Below, in pieces: positions 49,479 through 60,089 of a stretch of 64,000 bases of DNA. Both the position numbers and the translations under genes were made by a program. Below the pieces are notes generated by a model that searched no databases, was not told where the DNA came from, and was given only the letters and a program-made list of their open reading frames with translations. The number at the start of each line of letters is the position of its first letter. Position 1 is the stretch's first letter. The stretch is from assembly GCA_005778355.1 (NCBI GenBank), contig SXON01000156.1, forward strand, positions 1-64,000, written 5' to 3'. Origin of the DNA: Pseudomonadota bacterium. GTDB lineage: Bacteria; Myxococcota_A; UBA796; SXON01.

Positions 49479-50882
49479 GTGACCCTGCTTCCGCTCCTCG
49501 TCCTCGGCTGTTCGACGGACCCCGGCGAGAGTGCCGCGCCCGGCGCCGGTTTTTCCGTGGTGACGAGCAGCGTGGAGGGCGGTGCCTTGCTCTCCGCGTG
49601 GAGCGAGGGCAACGCGCTCCTCATGGTGGGCGGCCAGATCGGCGGCGGCTCGGGCATCCTCGCCCGCCTGGACGACGATGTTCTCTGCGTGGAGAGCGAC
49701 TTCTCGGAGAAGACCCCGTGGTGGATCCACGGCGAGGGCAACGACTGGGTGGCCGTGGGCGAGGCTGGCCTCGTGGTGTACAGCCACGACGGCACGCGAA
49801 CGCGGGAAGATGTGCCCACCGAGGCCACGCTCTACGGGGCCTGGATGGAAGGCAGCGAGGTGATCGCTGTGGGCGGTCGCTCCGCCAGCGAGGGCAGCGT
49901 GGGCGAGGTCTGGCGCCGCCGCGACGGGGCCTGGACAGCCCTCGCGACGGACTTGCCGGGCGCGGTCTACAAGGCCTGGAACGGCTTCCTCGTGGGCGAC
50001 GGGGTGGCCTACACCTACGACGGCGAGAGCCTGGCGCCGGTCGACTTCGGCGGCGGTCACCTCTTGACGGTGCGCGGTCGCGACACGAGCGACGTGTACG
50101 CGGTGGGCGGCCTCGGTCAACCCGAGCTCTGGCACTACGACGGCCGCGCCTGGACGGCGCTCGACGGCTCGGCGCTCGGCCAGCCGCTCAACGGCGTGTG
50201 GACGGCGCCCGGCGAGCCAGCCTGGGTTGCGGGGAACTTCGGGGTTGTCGGCGGGCTCGACGGCGACGAGTGGATCCTGCCCGACGCGCCGCTCACCGCC
50301 GATCACCTGCACGCCGCGTGGAAACACGGCGACAGCGTGTACTTCGTCGGCGGGAACTTGTTCGACGGCGGGGAGAAACACGGGACGATCCTGCGCTACG
50401 GCGAGGGCGACGAGGTCATCGAGGACTGCGGCGAGTTGGCCGCCCTCCCGGGGATCACCCAGGCCCACGCCGCCACTGCGGCTTTCCCGGCCAGCCAGCT
50501 CACCGGCCCCACCGGTACGACGGCCCTCCTGGGCAAACCCGCCGTTGTCAACTTCTGGGCCAGCTGGTGTGCGCCCTGCCTGGAGGAGCTGCCGCTCTTC
50601 GACCAGCTGTCCACTCGCCTCTCGGGCGTGGCCCCCGTGGTGGCCGTGTCGGTCGACACCGCCTGGGGGCCCGCGAGTGGCGTGATCGCGCGCCTCGGGC
50701 TCAAGCTGCCACTCGCGCACGACCCGAAGGGGCTTCTGCCTCGTGCCCTGTCTGCCCCGAGCCTGCCGGCCACGTATGTCATCGACGCCCAGGGGCAGGT
50801 GCACTCAACCCTCTTCCGCGCGATCACCGCCGCCGATGTCGGGAGCATCGAGGCCCAGGTGCGCGCCCTGGTGAGCCCGTGA
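49479..50882 (+). CDS. Lipoprotein fusing a beta-propeller to a TlpA-type thioredoxin
   Basis: This 467-aa protein has a GTG start reading MTLLPLLVLGC (Cys at 11). Residues about 25-310 are short repeats around 'VYAVGG', 'WVAVGE', 'VIAVGG' and 'VYFVGGN', a propeller-like domain. Residues about 330-467 are a TlpA/ResA-type thioredoxin with active site WCAPC in VNFWASWCAPCLEELP and the cis-Pro loop PSLPATYVID. Such domains reduce disulfides in cytochrome c or metal-site maturation. It begins the coupled operon; its stop overlaps the next GTG. The propeller fusion is unusual for TlpA proteins. Confidence 0.82.
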   Translation: MTLLPLLVLGCSTDPGESAAPGAGFSVVTSSVEGGALLSAWSEGNALLMVGGQIGGGSGILARLDDDVLCVESDFSEKTPWWIHGEGNDWVAVGEAGLVVYSHDGTRTREDVPTEATLYGAWMEGSEVIAVGGRSASEGSVGEVWRRRDGAWTALATDLPGAVYKAWNGFLVGDGVAYTYDGESLAPVDFGGGHLLTVRGRDTSDVYAVGGLGQPELWHYDGRAWTALDGSALGQPLNGVWTAPGEPAWVAGNFGVVGGLDGDEWILPDAPLTADHLHAAWKHGDSVYFVGGNLFDGGEKHGTILRYGEGDEVIEDCGELAALPGITQAHAATAAFPASQLTGPTGTTALLGKPAVVNFWASWCAPCLEELPLFDQLSTRLSGVAPVVAVSVDTAWGPASGVIARLGLKLPLAHDPKGLLPRALSAPSLPATYVIDAQGQVHSTLFRAITAADVGSIEAQVRALVSP

Positions 50883-53557
50883 TCTTCCTGTTTGCCTGCG
50901 CACCGCCCACGCCCCGGGAGGTCTTCGACGCGGAGGTGGTGCCCGTGCTCGAGCGGAGCTGCGCCGCTTCGACCTGTCACGGCGTGGGCCCGGATGATCC
51001 CCCGGCGCCCGACCCCGCGAACACCTATTTCCAGACCGATGGCGACAGTCACATCACCGACCTCGACGCCGCCTACGTCACCGCCTTGAGGGTGGTGAAC
51101 ACCGACGAGTCACCGGCCTACTCCACGCTGCTCCGCAAGCCGCTCAGCTCCACCTTCGGGGGCCTGCCGCACTATGGCGGCGACAACTTCCGCAGCCCCG
51201 ACGACCCGGGCTACCAGTCGGTCCTCAGTTGGATTGCCATGGAGCAGGTGGGCGGCGAGGTGGCCGAGCCCCTCAGCGCGCTTGAGACACTCTACGCCGA
51301 CACGGTGCAGCCCATCCTCTCGGGGCGCGGCTGCATGCAGGGCAATTGCCATGGGGTGTCGGCAGCGATCCCATTCCGCTTCGATCCGGGTGTCGATGGT
51401 GCATTCCCCAGGCAGGCCACCCACGACAACTACGACGCCGCACGCACCATGATCTCGATGGACGGCGACCCGTCCTTGTCGCGCCTCTTGCGAAAGGGCG
51501 TGCCCATGCACCGGGGCGGCATCGTTCACAAGGGGGGCAACACCACCTTCTTCTTCATGGACGACGACCCCGCCATCGCCGCCATCGAGAGCTGGGCCTG
51601 CGCCGAGCGTGAAGCCCTGGGCGGCGCCTGCGGCGACGTGGTGGAGGGCTACTACGTGGTCGTGGGCGAGGTGGCCCCGGCCGACCCCTTCGTGCTCGAA
51701 CCGACCGACAGCGCGCGCATCGCCTGGTACAGCGACGCCGAGGGGCTCCAGGACCTCGATCTCGGCGGCGACGACACGCGCGACCCGGCGGTGGATCCGA
51801 CCGGACAGTACCTCGCCTTCGCGCGGCGGGAGGCCGGGGAAAGCAACCACCACGTGTGGATGCTCGACCGGGAGAGCGGCGCGCTCACCCAGCTCACCCG
51901 TGGCGAGGGGACCGACCGCGACCCGGCCTTCGGGCCAGACGGCGAGGTGTGGTTCGTCTCCAACCGCGCGGGCGTAGTGGCCGACGACGGCGAGCGGATG
52001 GACACCGAGATCTACAGCGTTCACCCTGACAGCCTCGACGTCACCCGGTGGACGTGGACGCCCCACATCGAGCGCAAGCTGACATTCGCGGTCCACGGCG
52101 AGGAGCACGGCGGCGAGGTGATGTTCACCGCCTTGCGCGACGCGATCCCCGGGCAGAGTTTTGCGCATCCCTTCCGCTTCCCCCCCGACCTCTCCACCGA
52201 GTACCACCAGCACTTCGGCATCTCGCCCGAGGAAACGCTGACCCACGACATGGTGGAGCTACCCGACGGGCGATTCCTCGCGGTGATCGGCGACCTCGGC
52301 AATGCCTGGGAGGCCGGTCGCCTCGCGGTGGTGGATCGTAACTTCGGTCCGGAGATCCCGAGTGGCAGCGACCCGGCGCTCCCCTTCTACGCCGACCCCA
52401 TCACCCGGCTCGACCCGGAGGCCGCCGAGAAGGGACAGACGGCGCGTTTCTACCGCGACCCGGCGGCGCTTCCCGATGGCAGCTTCCTGGCGGCCGTGGC
52501 GGAAGGCCCCTTCGACCTGGGCGACGACACGGCGGTGCCGCAGTTCCGAGTGATGCGATTCACCGTCACCGAGTCGAGCGACGGGAGCGGTCCGGTCATC
52601 GCGAGCACGGAAACCGTGGTCGAGTCCGACGTGTCCGTCTACGACCCCGTGCCCGTCTACCTGCGGCAGGCGGCGCCCCTGAAGGAACGAAAGTGGGACC
52701 CGGAGGCCTCGACCGGCACCTACGTTCACAACGGGCTGGCGCTGATCGACGCGGTGCTCACGGCGTTGCCCCCCACCGGTCCACGCCCCGTGCGCGACGA
52801 CATCGTGGCGGTACGGCTCATCGAGGCGATCACTCAGGCCCCGGGCGACGTCCGGTCACTGCCGGAGTGGGGTGAACGCGCCACCACCACCGGCCTCGGC
52901 GGCTACGCGGCGGCGCGCATCCTCGCCGAGTTCCCCCTCGCCGACGATGGTACCCTCTACACCAGCGTCCCTGCGGGCGTGCCCTTCCGCGTGCAGGCGC
53001 TCGACGCCCAGGGCTTCGCCGTGGGCACCGACCACAACCGCTGGTTCTACGTGGCGCCGGGTCAAACGTTGAAGCAAGGGCTGCGCAAGGGCGACGGCAC
53101 CGCCTACGCCACCCTCTGCGCGGCCTGTCACGGCGCGCTCGACGGCAACCCGGACAACGTCTTCGTCGAGCCCGACGTCACCACCACTGCCTCGCTCACG
53201 CTCTCCCGCTACGAGGATCAGGATCCGCGGCGTCCGCTCGACCCGATGGTGCTCGGCGACGACACGCGGCGAACCCTGGACTACATCGACGACATCTCGC
53301 CCCTCTTCGAGAGCTGCCGTTCTTGTCACTCGGCGACGGACCCGGCCGGCGAGCTGCGGCTCGACACCGAGCCCTTGTCGGAGTTCGACGAGGGCTACGT
53401 CGCGCTCTTCGAGCGTGGTCTCCTCGAGCCCGGTCGCGCGGGGTCGAGCAGCCTCGTCACCAAGCTCAGCGGGCAGGCGCACGGCGAGCTGAGTCCCAGC
53501 GATTTCGCCACCCTCTGCACGTGGATCGACCTCGGCGCGCCCTGGGAGGTGCCATGA
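50879..53557 (+). CDS. Lipoprotein with haem sites and PD40 beta-propeller
   Basis: This 892-aa protein has a GTG start reading MIFLFAC (Cys at 7). Two C-x4-CH sites near the N-terminus (CAASTCHG, CMQGNCHG) and two classic CxxCH sites near the C-terminus (CAACHG near 750, CRSCHS near 815) suggest four haems. The middle holds TolB/PD40-like blades (DPAVDPTGQYLAFARR; DPAFGPDGEVWFVSNR). It is probably a cell-surface electron-transfer or sensor protein. It overlaps genes on both sides (GTGA, ATGA). Confidence 0.78.
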   Translation: MIFLFACAPPTPREVFDAEVVPVLERSCAASTCHGVGPDDPPAPDPANTYFQTDGDSHITDLDAAYVTALRVVNTDESPAYSTLLRKPLSSTFGGLPHYGGDNFRSPDDPGYQSVLSWIAMEQVGGEVAEPLSALETLYADTVQPILSGRGCMQGNCHGVSAAIPFRFDPGVDGAFPRQATHDNYDAARTMISMDGDPSLSRLLRKGVPMHRGGIVHKGGNTTFFFMDDDPAIAAIESWACAEREALGGACGDVVEGYYVVVGEVAPADPFVLEPTDSARIAWYSDAEGLQDLDLGGDDTRDPAVDPTGQYLAFARREAGESNHHVWMLDRESGALTQLTRGEGTDRDPAFGPDGEVWFVSNRAGVVADDGERMDTEIYSVHPDSLDVTRWTWTPHIERKLTFAVHGEEHGGEVMFTALRDAIPGQSFAHPFRFPPDLSTEYHQHFGISPEETLTHDMVELPDGRFLAVIGDLGNAWEAGRLAVVDRNFGPEIPSGSDPALPFYADPITRLDPEAAEKGQTARFYRDPAALPDGSFLAAVAEGPFDLGDDTAVPQFRVMRFTVTESSDGSGPVIASTETVVESDVSVYDPVPVYLRQAAPLKERKWDPEASTGTYVHNGLALIDAVLTALPPTGPRPVRDDIVAVRLIEAITQAPGDVRSLPEWGERATTTGLGGYAAARILAEFPLADDGTLYTSVPAGVPFRVQALDAQGFAVGTDHNRWFYVAPGQTLKQGLRKGDGTAYATLCAACHGALDGNPDNVFVEPDVTTTASLTLSRYEDQDPRRPLDPMVLGDDTRRTLDYIDDISPLFESCRSCHSATDPAGELRLDTEPLSEFDEGYVALFERGLLEPGRAGSSSLVTKLSGQAHGELSPSDFATLCTWIDLGAPWEVP

Positions 53558-53961
53558 TTCTCCTCGCCGCGTGTGTCACCGGGCCCGGCAGCATCGAGCT
53601 GCCCGACGCCGACACCGCCGAGTTCTACGCCACGGTGGAGCCCGAGCTCGGCGCGAGCTGCGGCAACCCGAGCTGCCATGGCTCGGCCGACCGGCCCTAC
53701 GAGGTGTACGCGGTGCACTACCATCGTGCCGATCCCGACGACACTTACGTCGACGCGGAGCTCAGCGACGAGGAACACCAGCTCAACTTCGACCGGGCGC
53801 GCGCGTTTCTGAGCCCGTCCGATCCCGCGCAAAGCCTCCTCCTCCTCAAGCCGCTCGACCCCGCCGAGGGGGGGCTCGTGCATGGCGAGGAGCTGGTCAT
53901 CTACCTCGACCGCTCCGACCCCGGCTGGATTGCCCTCGCCGACTGGGCAGGTGTGCCATGA
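53554..53961 (+). CDS. Small monohaem-like lipoprotein
   Basis: This 135-aa lipoprotein reads MILLAAC (Cys at 7). It carries one C-x4-CH site, CGNPSCHG, in the context VEPELGASCGNPSCHGSADR. This resembles the N-terminal unit of the preceding 892-aa protein, and the C-terminal LVIYLDRSDPGWIALADWAG matches the 'W-I' ending seen there, so the two share a domain type. Start and stop overlap neighbours (ATGA both times). Confidence 0.68.
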   Translation: MILLAACVTGPGSIELPDADTAEFYATVEPELGASCGNPSCHGSADRPYEVYAVHYHRADPDDTYVDAELSDEEHQLNFDRARAFLSPSDPAQSLLLLKPLDPAEGGLVHGEELVIYLDRSDPGWIALADWAGVP

Positions 53962-54143
53962 TCTGGTTGTTCCTTCTCGCCTGTGTACACGTCCCCACCT
54001 GGCAGCGGGCGCCGCTCCTGACCGAGCAGATGGCCTTCGATCCCGATCCGCTGGGCTCCACCTTCGACATGCACGTGCACGACACGCGCGAGGCGATGAG
54101 CGGGGCCACGGCCTCGGCGGGGGTCCCGTGTGGCTGCAACTAG
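53958..54143 (+). CDS. DUF4266 lipoprotein with flavinylation-like motif
   Basis: This 61-aa lipoprotein reads MIWLFLLAC with Cys at 9, then VPTWQRAPLLTEQMAFDPDP, the DUF4266 pattern (hydrophobic, W-x-R, M-x-x-DPDP), and ends in CGCN. Near the C-terminus E45-A-M-S48-G-A-T51 fits the ApbE target motif D-x-x-[ST]-G-A-T with Glu for Asp. DUF4266 genes commonly travel with DUF3570 and ApbE, as here. It is too short for most annotation cut-offs. Its 3' end overlaps the DUF3570 gene by 16 bp. Confidence 0.82.
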   Translation: MIWLFLLACVHVPTWQRAPLLTEQMAFDPDPLGSTFDMHVHDTREAMSGATASAGVPCGCN

Positions 54144-55204
54144 CGGCATTCGCCCTCGCCGATGACAGCGAGACCCTGCACCCAGACGCGGCCTCGGCCC
54201 AGTTCAACGTGTACAGCGACGAGGGCGTCACCGCGTGGGCGCCCTCGGCGCGGGCGCGCGTCGGCGCGGGCAGCCTGACCGTCGGCGCGCTCTGGACCGC
54301 CGACTTCGTGTCCGGTGCCACCCCGGTGGTGGCCACCGACGCGGTGAGTAGCGCCACGCCCTTCTCGGAAACGCGCAACGGCGGCACCTTCGACCTCGAG
54401 TGGGCGCCATCGACGCAGTGGAGCTACACCGCCGCCGTCACCGGCAGCACCGAGAGCGACCACCAGGTGGTTCTCGGCTCGGTCGGCGCGTCGGCCGCGC
54501 TCAACGAAGACAGCACGCGGCTCAACGCGGGGGCCAGCCTCGGCTGGGTGCAAGACGGCACCCGGGCCGACCCCACCCTCGCGGGCGAGTCGATCGACGC
54601 CGCGCTCGACCTCGGCTGGACGCAGATCCTCGGCCCCACCACGTCGGCCGCGCTCCGGTTCACCGGCGGCTACGCCGACTGTGATCCGGCCTTCGGCTGC
54701 GTCGCGAGCGCCTATCGCTACGTGCCCCAGGGCGACGTCTTCCTGCCCGAGCGCCACCCCGACACGCGGGCCAAGAGCGCCGCCTCCGCCTCGATCTCCC
54801 AGGCCTTCGGCAGCGACTACGCTGTTCACGGCTACTACCGGTACTACGCTGACACCTGGCAGGTTTCTGGTCACACGGGCACCCTCGCCCTCGCCGGCGC
54901 CTTCTTCGAGGGCCGGGGAGTCTTGCGACTGGAGGGCCGCGGCGTGTTGCAGAGTCCCGCGAGCTTCTGGACCGATGGCTACGCGGGCCCATCGGAGTAC
55001 CGCACCGCCGACCGCGAGCTATCGGGCTTCACCGAGTGGAAAGCCGGCCTGCGCGCCCGCTGGAACTTCTTCGGGCTCTTGCGGACGCAGAAGGTGGCGC
55101 TCGACGCACACCTCGAGCGGCTCTGGTTCAACTATCCTAACTACGCAGCCTTGCCCGAGCGCAATGGCTGGATCCTCGGGGGAGGCATCGATGCTCGCTG
55201 GTAG
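54128..55204 (+). CDS. DUF3570 outer-membrane beta-barrel protein
   Basis: This 358-aa protein has a GTG start and signal MWLQLAAFALA, then acidic residues. The rest alternates polar and hydrophobic residues with aromatic strand ends (WSYTAAVTGSTESDHQVVLG; VHGYYRYYADTWQVSGHTG) and finishes in ...DARW, consistent with an outer-membrane barrel of the DUF3570 family. D59-F-V-S-G-A-T65 exactly fits the ApbE flavinylation motif and D71-A-V-S-S-A-T77 nearly does. The function of the family is unknown. It sits between DUF4266 and the later cytochrome and apbE genes. Confidence 0.82.
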   Translation: MWLQLAAFALADDSETLHPDAASAQFNVYSDEGVTAWAPSARARVGAGSLTVGALWTADFVSGATPVVATDAVSSATPFSETRNGGTFDLEWAPSTQWSYTAAVTGSTESDHQVVLGSVGASAALNEDSTRLNAGASLGWVQDGTRADPTLAGESIDAALDLGWTQILGPTTSAALRFTGGYADCDPAFGCVASAYRYVPQGDVFLPERHPDTRAKSAASASISQAFGSDYAVHGYYRYYADTWQVSGHTGTLALAGAFFEGRGVLRLEGRGVLQSPASFWTDGYAGPSEYRTADRELSGFTEWKAGLRARWNFFGLLRTQKVALDAHLERLWFNYPNYAALPERNGWILGGGIDARW

Positions 55205-55706
55205 CTTGCTCTTGTTTTGGGCCTGCACGGGCACCGAAGACACCGGCACGGGCGAAACCGAGGCCACGAGCTTCGCCTGCGAGCTGGGCGTGCCCACCCC
55301 GGAGAACGGGTGGCAGCCGCTCGTCGATACGCTGGAAATGGAGATGGGCTTCCAGGGCTTCGTGCTCGCCCAGCTCCAACTCAAGGTGGCCGACGAGGCG
55401 CCGAGCCCGCTCACGGCCACCATGGTGGTGGAGCCTGAGGGCGCCGACGCGGTGTCCGGTTCCCAACCGCTGGTCTATGTCAACGGCGGGATCACCGACC
55501 CGATCCTCGTGTTCTTCACCAGCAACTACATCAGCTACTACCTCGACCGCTCGGCCCGCGTGGCGGTGCGGGTGCAGTCGGGTAACGCGAGCTGCGCGGT
55601 AGAAGGCACGGCGATCCTCGTGGACGAGGACCCCTGCCTCCACACGGGGGACGAGCCCATCTGTCCCGAGGACTCGGGCTTCCCGTCCGACACTGGGGAG
55701 GAGTGA
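55191..55706 (+). CDS. Small lipoprotein of the redox operon
   Basis: This 171-aa lipoprotein reads MLAGSLLLFWACTGTEDTGT: Cys at 12, no basic residue. GGGGGAGG lies five bases before the ATG. The domain (about 28-165) is beta-rich, perhaps Ig-like (QPLVYVNGGITDPILVFF), with paired Cys residues and a final acidic tail (EDSGFPSDTGEE). Family unknown. It overlaps the 3' end of the DUF3570 gene by 14 bp and shares a base with the next start. Confidence 0.62.
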   Translation: MLAGSLLLFWACTGTEDTGTGETEATSFACELGVPTPENGWQPLVDTLEMEMGFQGFVLAQLQLKVADEAPSPLTATMVVEPEGADAVSGSQPLVYVNGGITDPILVFFTSNYISYYLDRSARVAVRVQSGNASCAVEGTAILVDEDPCLHTGDEPICPEDSGFPSDTGEE

Positions 55707-58051
55707 TGTTTGTCTTGTTCATGGCCTGCGCCGAGGAAAGCTGGCGCACGCTCACCCCCTACGACAATCCGATGACCTCGGATGATCCGCTCTGGTCGCC
55801 GCAACCGCACCGCGACAAGCCCACCGAGGTGGCCACCGCCAACAACCACGCCTATGTCGCGTTGCAGGGCCAGGTCGACGAGCCGAGCTGCGAGGTGGCC
55901 GACGTCAACCTCGGCACCGGCGAGATCGTGCGCTGGGAGGTGGGCCCGGCGCCCACCGGCATCGCCGTGCATCCCGACGGCTGGTTCCTCGCCACCGGTC
56001 GCTACGGCAACTGGGTAACACAGGTCGACCCCGACACCGGCGAGATCAATCGGCTGGAAACTGACTTCTACGCGGCCGAGATCAAGTTCACCGCCGACGG
56101 CACCGAGGCCTGGGTCACCAACCGTTGGAAAGACCGGGTGGAGGTGTGGGACTTCGACGGCAACGAGCGCACCAGCGTGGGCTACCTCGACGCCGGCATC
56201 AACCCCCGCGACATCGACGTGTCCGACACGCGCGTGGCCGTGGCCAACGTGACCGGCCTGAGCGTCGACCTCTACGATCGCGTGGCGCGCGAACATCTCG
56301 CCTCCATCGACCTCGACGCCCCCGCCAACGGCCTCGCCTTCGCCGGCGACTGGCTCATCGTGGCCACCCTCTCCAATTCGCGCCACAACCTGCCGCACGA
56401 GGGTCCCGATAGCAACAGCGACGGCGAGCCGGGCGACGGCACGCCGAATGTCAACTTCCAGGACCTGCAGTCGGAGATCGCGGTGATCGACGCGCGGACC
56501 GGCGAGATCACCCATCGCTACACGTCAGACACGATGTGCTGCAAAGACTTCCGCGACATCCACCCGGAAGACACGGCGCTCTACGGCGACGAGCTGCCCC
56601 CCGAGGACACCTGGATCGTGGGCGGAGCCCTGCCCGAGCAAGTGGTGGTCGACGGCGACACCGTGTGGGTGGACTACTCTTCCTCCAACCAGCTCCAGTC
56701 CTTCACCATCGATCCGGCCACCGGGAACCTGAGCCCGGGTGAGGTGGTGCAGACCGGTCACGCGCCTCATGGGCTGGCCGTCACCGAGAGCGGCGACGTG
56801 CTCGTGGTGGAGCGGCTCGCGGAGACCCTGGCGCGCTTCCGCGCCGGGCAGCTGGTGGAGCGGTACACGGTGGGCGACACGCGCGACGGCGCCTTCCCCG
56901 CCACCGACGCGGAGCTCGGCGAGCTGTTCAACAACGTCACCGGGCCATTCACGGTCGACGGCGACCAGTCCTGTGTGATGTGTCACCGCGAGGGCGGCAA
57001 TCTCAACAAGGCCATCGGCATGCCGCTGGCTCGCCACGCCGGCATCAACTCGCGCATGGTGGCCGCCTACCGCGGCGCCTTTGACACTCGCCCCTGGTTC
57101 TTCGAGGGGGCGATGGACCAGACCAACTTCCGCCCGGTCATCAACGAGTTCGCGCGCGTGGAGAACTTCTGCTGCGAAGACTACACGCTCTGGCCGGACG
57201 GGGCCCCGGCCGACTGTGCCACCAACCCGCCCGATGAGTGTTTCACCGAGACGGCCACCGGCTCCGTCGACGCGATCTTGCCCTCCCGCGACACGGAGCA
57301 CCGCTCGCCCTGGCCCACCGAGTACGTCACCCGCGACGCCTTCTTCCTCGCGCGCAGCATCGAGGTGATGGGTCGCGACACCACCTTCGGCGACGCGGTG
57401 TACCTCGAAGACCCAGTCACGCTCGAGCGCGAGCCCTTGCCGCTCACACTGGAAGGCATCACGCGCTCACTGGGTATCTTCCTGCTTCGACGACCCAACC
57501 TCTTCCCCAACCCGAACGACGACGACACCACGGTGGTGAGGCGGGGCGAGGCCATCTTCAACGACAAGACGACGGCCTGCGCCACCTGCCACCCGGCGCC
57601 GGCCTTCACCGTGTCGACGATGTACAATCCCGACGAGCTGGCGATGGTGATGCCCCCGGTCGTCACCCCGATGCGCGACGAGGGGGGCACGAACATCGAC
57701 CTCTTGTCCGACGGCTTCATGGCCACCTTCCCCACCGCCGAGCAAGACACCTGCACGGAGATGTGTGGCGAGGAGGCGTGCACCGACGACCCCTTCGTGT
57801 GCGACGACATCATGAACGTGCGCTTCAATCCCCCGCAGCTGCGCGGCACCTGGGACCGCGCCCCGCGCATGTTGCACGACGGCCGGGCCAACGGGCTCCG
57901 CGAGGTGCTCTGCACGCCCGGGCACCCCGCCCTGCGCGAGGGCGAGAAGGGCTTCAACGAGCGCGATGGCGTGATCGATACCCACGGCGGCACGAGCCAC
58001 CTGAGCGCCGATGACATCGACGCGTTGATAGCCTTCATCGAGAGTCGATGA
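55706..58051 (+). CDS. YncE-like propeller fused to di-haem cytochrome domain
   Basis: This 781-aa protein reads MFVLFMAC with Cys at 8; the stop of the previous gene overlaps its ATG (TGATG). Residues about 20-400 are YncE/lactonase-like propeller blades (TGIAVHPDGWFLATGRYGNW; APHGLAVTESGDVLVVERL). The second half has two CxxCH sites (CVMCH near 428, CATCH near 630) in a layout like di-haem peroxidase/MauG-type proteins (ARHAGINSRMVAAYRGAFD; LRGTWDRAPRMLHDGRANGL). It probably takes part in electron transfer or substrate oxidation in the envelope. It overlaps apbE (ATGA). Confidence 0.8.
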   Translation: MFVLFMACAEESWRTLTPYDNPMTSDDPLWSPQPHRDKPTEVATANNHAYVALQGQVDEPSCEVADVNLGTGEIVRWEVGPAPTGIAVHPDGWFLATGRYGNWVTQVDPDTGEINRLETDFYAAEIKFTADGTEAWVTNRWKDRVEVWDFDGNERTSVGYLDAGINPRDIDVSDTRVAVANVTGLSVDLYDRVAREHLASIDLDAPANGLAFAGDWLIVATLSNSRHNLPHEGPDSNSDGEPGDGTPNVNFQDLQSEIAVIDARTGEITHRYTSDTMCCKDFRDIHPEDTALYGDELPPEDTWIVGGALPEQVVVDGDTVWVDYSSSNQLQSFTIDPATGNLSPGEVVQTGHAPHGLAVTESGDVLVVERLAETLARFRAGQLVERYTVGDTRDGAFPATDAELGELFNNVTGPFTVDGDQSCVMCHREGGNLNKAIGMPLARHAGINSRMVAAYRGAFDTRPWFFEGAMDQTNFRPVINEFARVENFCCEDYTLWPDGAPADCATNPPDECFTETATGSVDAILPSRDTEHRSPWPTEYVTRDAFFLARSIEVMGRDTTFGDAVYLEDPVTLEREPLPLTLEGITRSLGIFLLRRPNLFPNPNDDDTTVVRRGEAIFNDKTTACATCHPAPAFTVSTMYNPDELAMVMPPVVTPMRDEGGTNIDLLSDGFMATFPTAEQDTCTEMCGEEACTDDPFVCDDIMNVRFNPPQLRGTWDRAPRMLHDGRANGLREVLCTPGHPALREGEKGFNERDGVIDTHGGTSHLSADDIDALIAFIESR

Positions 58052-58989
58052 CCCTGCTCCTCGTTGCCCTCGCGTTCGCCGCCAACAAGTCCTTCAGCAG
58101 CGAGGCGATGAGCACGAGGGTGGAGGTGACCCTCCCCGACGATGCCGACGCCGCCGTGCACGCCGCCGGCGTCTTCGCGATCTTCCGGGCCGTGGAGGAA
58201 GAGGCGAACGAGTGGCGCGAGGGCTCGCCGCTCGCCCGCGTGAACGCCGCCGCCGGGGGCGAGGCGGTGGCGGTGCCCGCGCCCACCTACGAGCTGGTGA
58301 AGCGCGCCGTGGCCATCGGTGGCCTCACTGGCGGCAAGTTCGACCTCACCTGGGCCGCGCTGTGGGACCTGTGGGACTTCCGCGCGCGGCGGGTTCCGTC
58401 GCAAGAGGAGATCGCCCCGCGATTGCCCCTGATCGACTACGCCCGGGTGGAGCTGGGAGACGGCACCGTGCGACTGCCCGAGGCCGGGATGAAGGTCGGC
58501 CTCGGCGGCATCGCGAAGGGCTGGGCGCTCGACCGGGCGCGGGACTACCTCGATGAGCATGGTCGCCACGACTTCCTCGTGAGCGCCGGGGGACAGGTCT
58601 ACGCCGGCGGCCAAAACGCCGAGGGACAGCCCTGGCGCGTGGGGGTGCGCGACCCCGATGGCGCCGCCACCAGCGCGCTGGCCTTGCTCGGCGTGACCGG
58701 CGCCAGCGTGTCGACCCGCGGCGACTACGAGCGCTACTTCGAGCGCGAGGGCGTGCGCTACCACCACATCATCGACCCCGACACCGGCTGGCCGGCCCGG
58801 GGCCTTCGCGCGGTCACTGCCCTCAGTCCCGACGCCACCCTCGCCGACGCCGCCAGCACCGCGATCATGGTCGCCGGGCCCGAGGGTGCCGGGGCCATGG
58901 CCCGGGCGCTCGGCGTCGAGGCCTTGTGGATCGCCGACGACGGGATGGTGTACGCCACTGCGGGGATGCCGATCACGTGGCGGCGGTAG
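58048..58989 (+). CDS. apbE: FAD:protein FMN transferase ApbE
   Basis: ApbE covalently attaches FMN from FAD to Thr or Ser of target proteins outside the cytosol. This 313-aa protein has a short signal (MTLLLVALAFAANK) and shows REGSPLARVNAAAGG, KFDLTWAALWDLWDF, the conserved GLGGIAKGWALDRARDYL, VSTRGDYERYF and YHHIIDPDTGWPARGL, ending with the metal-site region DATLADAASTAIMVAG. No lipobox Cys is present, so it is soluble or membrane-released. It is the last gene of the operon, giving a direct link between flavinylation and the DUF4266/DUF3570 proteins. Confidence 0.92.
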   Translation: MTLLLVALAFAANKSFSSEAMSTRVEVTLPDDADAAVHAAGVFAIFRAVEEEANEWREGSPLARVNAAAGGEAVAVPAPTYELVKRAVAIGGLTGGKFDLTWAALWDLWDFRARRVPSQEEIAPRLPLIDYARVELGDGTVRLPEAGMKVGLGGIAKGWALDRARDYLDEHGRHDFLVSAGGQVYAGGQNAEGQPWRVGVRDPDGAATSALALLGVTGASVSTRGDYERYFEREGVRYHHIIDPDTGWPARGLRAVTALSPDATLADAASTAIMVAGPEGAGAMARALGVEALWIADDGMVYATAGMPITWRR

Positions 58990-59015: not shown

Positions 59016-60089
59016 ATGTCGACGCCGACCTACTGGGACTACCTCCGCCTGCCCGACCTGCTCGAGCTCCAGGGGGGGCTCGACGGGCAGCCGAGCCCCG
59101 ACGAGCTGCACTTCATCGTGGTGCACCAGAGCTTCGAGCTTTGGTTCAAGCTGGTGCTCTCGCAGCTCCGCCTCGCGCGCGACCACCTCGCCGCGCCGCG
59201 GCTGCCGGAGGAGCGCGTGCCCTTCGTGGTGCACCATCTCGGCCGGGTGAACGCCATTCTTCGCCTCTGCGTGGAGCAGTTCGCGGTGATGGAAACCCTG
59301 CCACCGCAGGACTTCCTCGACTTCCGCGACAAGCTCGTGCCCTCCTCCGGCTTCCAGAGCTTCCAGATGCGGGAGCTGGAGCTGGTTCTCGGCCTTCGGC
59401 AGGATCAACGCATCAAGTACGCGGGAACCGACCCATTGGCCCACATCAGGGCCCAGTCGCATTCCCCGGCCAGCGCCAAGGTGGCCGGCAAGCTGGAAGC
59501 GGCGATGGCGGAAACCACGCTGCACACCTCGGTGATGGCCTGGCTCCAGCGGACGCCGATCATGGGGTCGAACCCGGGCGACCCCGACGACGACGCCATG
59601 GTCGACGCCTTCCTCTCGGAGTACCTCGCGAAGACCGAGGGCCACCAGCGGGAGGGCATCGAGACCTTGGTGCGCGCGCTCTCCGAGAATGATCGCCCGG
59701 CGATCACCGCCCGGGTGGAGGCGGGCCTCGCGGCCACGCGGGCCTTCCTTACCCCCGACGACCGGGAGGCACGTCGTGCACGCGCCGGCCTCTTGTTCAT
59801 CGAGAGTTACCGCGAACTGCCCCTCCTGGCGTGGCCACGGCTTCTGCTCGACACGGTGTGCGAGCTCGAGGAACAACTCTTGTTGTTCCGCAATCGTCAC
59901 GCGCGCATGGTGGAGCGCACCATCGGCCGCCGCGTGGGCACCGGCGGCAGCTCGGGGGTGGACTACCTCGACCAGACCGCGTCGTACCGCGTGTTCCCCG
60001 AGCTCTGGGCGGTGCGCAGCTGCCTGCTCCCCCGCGAGCGCCTGCCCGGCCTGCGCGGCGGGGAACGCTACGGGTTCGCGGCGGGGTAG
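59016..60089 (+). CDS. kynA: Tryptophan 2,3-dioxygenase
   Basis: This 357-aa haem enzyme opens tryptophan to N-formylkynurenine, the first step of the kynurenine pathway. Signatures are TYWDYLRLPDLLELQ at the N-terminus, VHQSFELWFKLVLSQLRLAR (with the catalytic His) near 35, FQSFQMRELELVLG near 110, and the GTGGSSGVDYLDQT loop near 306. It starts 26 bp after apbE but has no overlap, so it may be a separate unit. No kynureninase or kynurenine formamidase is adjacent. Confidence 0.93.
   Translation: MSTPTYWDYLRLPDLLELQGGLDGQPSPDELHFIVVHQSFELWFKLVLSQLRLARDHLAAPRLPEERVPFVVHHLGRVNAILRLCVEQFAVMETLPPQDFLDFRDKLVPSSGFQSFQMRELELVLGLRQDQRIKYAGTDPLAHIRAQSHSPASAKVAGKLEAAMAETTLHTSVMAWLQRTPIMGSNPGDPDDDAMVDAFLSEYLAKTEGHQREGIETLVRALSENDRPAITARVEAGLAATRAFLTPDDREARRARAGLLFIESYRELPLLAWPRLLLDTVCELEEQLLLFRNRHARMVERTIGRRVGTGGSSGVDYLDQTASYRVFPELWAVRSCLLPRERLPGLRGGERYGFAAG

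Follow-up and report, generated by a model that had tools for sequence, protein, structure and literature searches.

A predicted outer-membrane barrel with paired candidate flavinylation sites is encoded with hydrazine synthase-like heme lipoproteins

INTRODUCTION

An operon that ends in apbE, the gene for an FAD:protein FMN transferase, raises the question of which of its products receives the flavin. Such an operon lies in the window analyzed here, a 64,000-nucleotide stretch of contig SXON01000156.1 (assembly GCA_005778355.1), where it also encodes a DUF3570 protein, a DUF4266 lipoprotein, and several further lipoproteins. An earlier note, made from the DNA letters and their translations, pointed to the absence of a classical FMN_bind protein from the operon and proposed both DUF3570 and DUF4266 as the natural ApbE substrates. 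The absence holds in a Pfam scan of ten proteins of the region, among which no FMN_bind match was found at E ≤ 0.1; one FMN_bind domain is encoded in the same genome, on a different contig.

For one of the two proposed substrates, an answer is in print. Full-text search for DUF3570 and for DUF4266 led to a single paper, that of Meheust et al. (eLife, 2021; PMC8238504), who report that ApbE-associated DUF3570 proteins carry two conserved [ST]GA[ST] motifs and that the DUF3570 protein of Chlorobium luteolum is flavinylated by its own ApbE, as followed by co-expression, in-gel fluorescence, and mutagenesis, with flavinylation lost only on changing both sites. The DUF3570 half of the earlier note is thus correct but already published for the family. 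The word "barrel" is absent from the main text of PMC8238504. Flavinylated folds were surveyed later in PMC11334425, with FMN-bind, NqrB/RnfD, and DUF2271 among the domains compared; its main text uses "outer membrane" once and "barrel" never, and in that comparison of domains the structural setting of DUF3570 is not treated. Two points go beyond the earlier note and deserve a second look: the predicted location of the sites in the mouth of a barrel and the operon link to a hydrazine synthase-like protein pair.

RESULTS

Gene content of the operon

Six proteins of the operon (the TlpA-like, 892-aa, 135-aa, DUF4266, 171-aa, and 782-aa proteins; Table 1) were classed as lipoproteins by lipoboxes read by eye, and the hydrophobic N terminus of ApbE was likewise read by eye. 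Pfam matches exceeded their cut-offs for DUF3570 (PF12094, 70.9 bits versus 25), for DUF4266 (PF14086, 48.1 bits versus 27, with the C-terminal CXC present as CGCN), and for ApbE (PF02424, 264.8 bits versus 25.6), the last being full-length (profile positions 1 to 266 of 266). The DUF4266 reading frame runs from an ATG, and that of DUF3570 starts at a GTG and overlaps its end. The 171-aa lipoprotein, without a Pfam family match, has a relative in 5 of the 100 DUF3570 loci described below at E < 1e-5 and in a sixth (L082) at E < 1e-4. Directly 3′ of apbE lies a gene for tryptophan 2,3-dioxygenase (59016-60089), which is also present in the sister locus L039 and for which no counterpart was detected around the operon in L040, L041, and L042.

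Table 1. Positions of the operon genes and of the candidate flavinylation sites in the window
Feature	Position	Strand	Basis
TlpA/ResA-like thioredoxin lipoprotein (C-terminal domain), 467 aa	49479..50882	+	Profile matches
Hydrazine synthase alpha-like lipoprotein, 892 aa, two CX4CH and two CXXCH	50879..53557	+	Profiles, motifs
Small lipoprotein, 135 aa, one CX4CH	53554..53961	+	Motif
DUF4266 lipoprotein, 61 aa, lipobox LLAC, C-terminal CGCN	53958..54143	+	PF14086
EAMSGAT in DUF4266 linker, residues 45-51; not a conserved flavinylation site	54090..54110	+	Alignment
DUF3570 protein, 358 aa, predicted 16-strand outer-membrane beta-barrel, ApbE substrate by family	54128..55204	+	PF12094, strand pattern, Foldseek on relative
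Candidate flavinylation site 1, DFVSGAT, residues 59-65, acceptor Thr65	54302..54322	+	Conservation; family-level experiment (PMC8238504)
Candidate flavinylation site 2, DAVSSAT, residues 71-77, acceptor Thr77	54338..54358	+	Conservation; motif tolerance (PMC12052999)
Small lipoprotein, 171 aa, no family match	55191..55706	+	Pfam scan
Hydrazine synthase beta-gamma-like lipoprotein, 782 aa, propeller and two CXXCH	55703..58051	+	Profiles, motifs
ApbE, FAD:protein FMN transferase, hydrophobic N terminus	58048..58989	+	PF02424

Conservation of the paired DUF3570 motifs

The window DUF3570 protein carries both motifs that had been read in it, at exactly the residues given: site 1 matches the motif exactly, and site 2 (SSAT, with Ser replacing the motif Gly) is a weaker match. 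We scanned 377 genomes of the window's phylum for DUF3570 and found it in 137. From these, 100 loci were picked by hand, a nonrandom sample that spans close relatives, the highest scores, genomes without ApbE, and a range of other matches, and one DUF3570 protein per locus was aligned with that of the window (101 rows). A genome scan with a four-sequence alignment returned three loci, a search of a viral collection found no further homologs, and the DUF3570 profile matched no PDB sequence up to E = 10.

The acceptor position is Ser or Thr in 99 of 101 rows at site 1 and in 79 of 101 at site 2. Misalignment accounts for the other two site 1 rows, L044 and L045, whose sequences contain DTWSGAT and DGVSGAT. 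The fifth motif position at site 1 varies (G in 51 rows, S in 30, A in 16, and other residues in 4, two of which are the misaligned rows), so that strict [ST]GA[ST] is missing from many members, as it is from site 2 of the window. Replacement of this Gly by Ala in another substrate left about 50 percent flavinylation (PMC12052999). In a narrower set (n = 27), both motif Asp residues and both motif Ala residues are invariant. Given the expectation from composition of 0.010 exact matches in DUF3570, together with this conservation, a chance origin of the motif was rejected; DFVSGAT is the sole D-x-x-[ST]-G-A-[ST] in the 68,504 residues of the window's six-frame open reading frames of at least 150 aa.

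The earlier note had made its proposal depend on conservation of the acceptor where ApbE is kept, and at site 1 of DUF3570 it is conserved: in 34 rows, ApbE is encoded on the same strand no more than 6 kb away, and of these, 32 have Ser or Thr and the other 2 are the misaligned rows, which hold the motif elsewhere. A strict motif at either site was found in 25 of these 34 rows versus 29 of the 67 without such an ApbE (Fisher P = 0.006), and site 1 is still kept in the latter 67. Across genomes, ApbE was detected in 134/137 with DUF3570 versus 182/240 without it (Fisher P = 1e-9, relatedness ignored). ApbE was not found in three DUF3570 genomes, G204, G330, and G365 (86, 95, and 86 percent complete), whose DUF3570 copies retain a motif-like loop. 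G330 (L079, L080, and L081) has six DUF3570 and four DUF4266 matches. A DUF3570 match in another genome (G182:C46:11963-12733) contains two in-frame TGA codons and may be a pseudogene, an error, or a case of recoding.

Position and variability of the DUF4266 motif

DUF4266 was found in all 137 DUF3570 genomes and in one further genome of the 377 scanned. The EAMSGAT reported for its residues 45 to 51 is present, although the start position given for it, 54092, lies two bases late (54090). Composition predicts 0.008 [ST]GA[ST] in DUF4266, a value that understates chance because the linker consists largely of small residues across the family, approximately [RK]-E-G-[SA]-x-G-G-x-G-x-x-G-G-G-C-G-C-N.

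We aligned 85 DUF4266 rows, comprising the window and the 84 of the 100 loci in which DUF4266 was found. At the acceptor column, SGAT is common to the window and its sister L039 only; within the window's family, the same column reads AGAT in L040, GGAT in L042, and TGAD in L041 (genome G296), where the acceptor is Asp even though ApbE is encoded in the operon. Of the 85 rows, 16 have Ser or Thr at this column (13 T and 3 S), 33 have Gly, and the rest have other residues. In the 29 rows with a local ApbE, Thr occurs in 3, Ser in 0, and Gly in 19. Any [ST]GA[ST] in the tail was found in 6/85 rows. In the window's family, 4 of the 5 DUF4266 members found have one, in L040 and L042 as SGAS just ahead of a CGCR end and thus in a different column from that of the window. 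Because the column shifts and L041 has no such motif, we read these occurrences as drift in a small-residue linker. The proposal of DUF4266 as a second ApbE substrate, taken as a family trait, was therefore dropped, since the acceptor is unconserved among homologs with ApbE; in our reading, DUF4266 is a constant partner of the barrel and probably not a flavin carrier. Of the earlier note as a whole, the motifs and the published DUF3570 substrate stand, and DUF4266 as a substrate across the family does not.

Predicted barrel structure and position of the acceptor sites

DUF3570 had also been called an outer-membrane barrel, and at the level of fold this finds support in a moderate-confidence model of a relative. 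The model of the window protein itself is poor (pLDDT 45), with a barrel-like series of strands that falls short of a confident barrel. The model of P0002, a relative from L141 that shares 39 percent identity with the window protein, has 16 strands (mean pLDDT 60, pTM 0.50), and its even number of amphipathic strands together with its structural matches places it among outer-membrane barrels. A Foldseek search of this model against the PDB gave 28 matches at E < 0.001, of which 27 are outer-membrane proteins by title (siderophore and cobalamin receptors, TamA, LptD, SusC, OmpG, CdiB, and others) and the 28th is an artificial zinc protein. The matches are loose (TM-score by query no higher than 0.56; rmsd between 6 and 22 for the rows with E < 0.001) and therefore indicate fold class only.

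In the P0002 model, the acceptor Thr68 immediately follows strand b and the acceptor Thr80 immediately precedes strand c; both flavins would therefore sit on one hairpin, in a loop with pLDDT below 50. Both are in register with polar, presumably lumen-facing residues (mean hydropathy of the acceptor register versus the other, −0.64 versus 1.67 for strand b and −1.57 versus 0.38 for strand c). One side of the barrel has seven turns of 2 to 10 residues; the other, which bears the sites, has four loops of 12 to 29 residues and four of 2 to 4. Of the 30 most conserved DUF3570 positions, 29 are on the long-loop side, compared with 197/341 overall, and 13 of the 16 strands are more conserved in their long-loop half (half-strand flip test, P = 0.009). 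A second strand assignment, based on the window model after manual addition of the first strand and with a small hairpin counted as loop, placed 37 of the 40 most conserved positions on the long-loop side (P = 0.006). In such barrels, the termini and short turns are usually periplasmic. By this rule, we infer that the predicted acceptor sites lie at the extracellular end of the barrel.

Homology of the heme lipoproteins to hydrazine synthase

The best PDB match of the 892-aa family profile is hydrazine synthase alpha (5c2v_A, E = 5.6e-32), with four positive-scoring colinear segments; a fifth printed segment scores negative. The 782-aa family profile matches best the surface-layer propeller 1l0q (E = 1.8e-41), followed by hydrazine synthase beta (E = 1.8e-18) and gamma (E = 1.5e-9). 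Since 1l0q scores better, the similarity to beta is generic to such propellers; gamma alone, among the 28 chains listed, aligned with the C-terminal di-heme part of the profile. Homology to hydrazine synthase is thus clear at the sequence level for the 892-aa protein (alpha) and moderately supported for the 782-aa protein (gamma). The Pfam HZS_alpha domain scores above its cut-off (31.6 bits versus 26.6), and the NCBI equivalog models score far below theirs (alpha, 35.9 bits versus 800; gamma, 27.1 versus 625), for which reason we regard both proteins as homologs and not as hydrazine synthases.

The heme motifs are well kept among relatives. Both CXXCH motifs are present in 12/12 beta-gamma-like relatives, and all four heme motifs (the last being CXXCH or CX4CH) are present in 11/13 alpha-like relatives; the remaining two are fragments that hold two motifs apiece. 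In the anammox enzyme, Tyr591 ligates heme alpha-I, four residues after His587 (PMC12758564). Equating the first CXXCH with the heme alpha-I motif from motif order, we found no Tyr at His+4 in any of the 11 rows with the motif, out of 12, all of which have Asp or Ser. Because this heme-ligating Tyr appears to be absent, hydrazine synthesis is not claimed.

Pairs of alpha and beta-gamma genes outside anammox bacteria have been described mainly from Planctomycetota and Desulfobacterota, with altered key residues (2025; PMC12758564). The main text of that paper contains none of the words "Myxococcota," "ApbE," "DUF3570," "DUF4266," and "flavin," and a full-text search of one literature library returned no paper with both of the full terms "hydrazine synthase" and "ApbE." Twelve papers in that library mention hydrazine synthase together with Myxococcota. 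HZS_alpha matched 75 of the 377 phylum genomes, 66 of them over the cut-off. DUF3570 occurs in 63 of these 75 versus 74 of the 302 others, a comparison that ignores shared ancestry and of which only part is operon linkage.

Frequency of the heme-flavin pairing

In 13 of the 100 DUF3570 loci, the same strand carries an alpha-like or beta-gamma-like gene no more than 7 kb away; ApbE is nearby in 9 of these and not in the other 4, which include L082 in G204, a genome without detected ApbE. The remaining loci have thioredoxin and ApbE (18), thioredoxin alone (5), ApbE alone (6), or no heme, thioredoxin, or ApbE gene nearby (58, some on stretches that end at a contig end). In all 14 heme-type genomes, counting the window's with those of the 13 loci, DsbD is absent from the DUF3570 contig; 7 of the 10 thioredoxin-type genomes included have it there. 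In the window's genome, the sole DsbD_TM match is on contig C181 and the window on C139, and the operon therefore stands apart from a DsbD cluster. Relatives of the 135-aa CX4CH lipoprotein were seen within 7 kb on the same strand in 9 of the 67 DUF3570 loci without nearby ApbE (L059, L062, L068, L081, L084, L092, L111, L127, and L129) and on the opposite strand in L091 and L124.

DISCUSSION

The motif pair, its conservation, its co-occurrence with ApbE, the barrel fold class of a relative, and the homology to hydrazine synthase alpha together lead us to a reading that we hold to be probable, if well short of secure: DUF3570 is an outer-membrane barrel that is flavinylated by ApbE and acts as a two-flavin relay with heme lipoproteins and periplasmic thiols. 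ApbE from the same operon would load FMN on Thr65, and less surely on Thr77, while the hairpin is still unfolded; the barrel would then insert, holding two FMNs side by side in its mouth, at both ends of one hairpin and among conserved Arg, Asp, Glu, Tyr, and Trp residues. There, the two FMNs could relay electrons at the outer membrane to or from the alpha-like and fused beta-gamma-like pair and the small CX4CH protein. The lipid-tethered DUF4266, with its CXC on a flexible Gly-rich tail, may shuttle electrons between periplasmic thiols and the flavins, and the TlpA-like thioredoxin would link the relay to the periplasmic thiol pool. FMN loading is the one step of this mechanism with experimental support, in a relative: by analogy with C. 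luteolum, where others have shown covalent flavin at both sites, both sites of the window protein may be occupied. The orientation, the partners, the order of events, and the direction of electron flow are as we infer them. A bolder extension, which we offer tentatively and would not ourselves bet on, is that two FMNs in an extracellular mouth wire the cell surface to a hydrazine synthase-like complex, a conduit of flavins without a multiheme wire.

ApbE, thioredoxins, and probably DUF4266 act in the periplasm, and an extracellular site would be hard for such partners to reach, which would count against the reading we prefer. These periplasmic partners instead fit a barrel that carries its flavins on an end facing the periplasm, as a thiol-flavin-heme relay anchored at the outer membrane. 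The 18 loci with thioredoxin and ApbE but no heme gene agree with that arrangement, as do published DsbD clusters that pair DUF3570 with a thioredoxin-like protein (PMC8238504). The model speaks for the opposite orientation: counted from the C-terminal strand, the 16 strands put the b-c hairpin opposite the termini, and all four loops of at least 12 residues are on the b-c side, the four others there having 2 to 4 residues. We consider the periplasm-facing arrangement a doubtful but serious possibility. That the barrel is chiefly a channel for iron or another solute, with flavins that reduce the cargo and a heme pair that belongs to a separate enzyme, appears unlikely. Siderophore receptors head the fold matches and 25 published DUF3570-type clusters carry the iron transporter VIT1 (PMC8238504), but the fold matches are generic to barrels, no iron transporter family was matched among the ten scanned proteins of the region (two of which had no match at all), and heme genes of this type adjoin DUF3570 in 13 of 100 loci.

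Two further alternatives concern the sites themselves. DUF4266 might be flavinylated too in this lineage, EAMSGAT in its flexible tail serving as a natural flavin tag. Such a modification is conceivable because seven residues suffice for ApbE and terminal tags work best (PMC12052999), Asp-to-Ala effects were minor in one substrate (PMC12052999), Glu occupies motif position 1 in 18 of the 34 ApbE-linked DUF3570 rows, and, of the five members found in the window's family, four carry an [ST]GA[ST] in the tail. We nevertheless judge it quite improbable, given a motif that stands at the window's column only in the window and L039, the retention of ApbE by L041 with TGAD there and no [ST]GA[ST] elsewhere, and the low counts across the family (16/85 at the column; 6/85 in the tail). 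Very improbable, in our estimate, is that the D-x-x-[ST]-x-A-[ST] pair has a structural role, as a hairpin at the barrel rim, and that flavinylation is absent or incidental in this subfamily. The motif persists in the three ApbE-less genomes and in many copies without a local apbE, and Ser or Ala replaces its Gly in many rows; against this stand the published family mutagenesis (PMC8238504), the ApbE found in 134 of 137 DUF3570 genomes, and, in the window, an exact site 1 with apbE in the same operon.

Should two FMNs sit in the mouth of the barrel, as we favor, they would provide compact electron transfer at the outer membrane and make DUF3570 testable as a surface redox site. Through this pairing, the orphan hydrazine synthase-like cytochromes gain a likely electron partner and the flavin barrel gains a likely client, and the operon may connect electron transfer by flavins with that by hemes at the outer membrane.

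MtrCAB-type porin-cytochrome conduits combine an outer-membrane barrel with c-type cytochromes, and the window operon is predicted to encode both kinds of protein; what would set it apart from MtrCAB is covalent flavin on the barrel. In the Foldseek search with the P0002 model, chain B of the Mtr complex (6r2q_B), which we take to be MtrB, ranked 38th (E = 1.4e-3), a match generic to barrels. Hydrazine synthase and its non-anammox homologs of clades I to IV (PMC12758564) share with the window an alpha-like gene upstream of a fused beta-gamma-like gene, and a propeller and heme motifs in the same order. The window pair differs from them in an alpha-like protein without Tyr at His+4 and with two N-terminal CX4CH motifs, and in its linkage to DUF4266, DUF3570, and ApbE. 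The published systems of DUF3570, DUF4266, thioredoxin, and ApbE, in whose clusters DsbD is the donor (PMC8238504), differ from the window operon, which is without DsbD, has heme lipoproteins of the hydrazine synthase type, and reads SSAT at site 2; the same four components, the two DUF3570 motifs, and the C-terminal CXC of DUF4266 are common to both.
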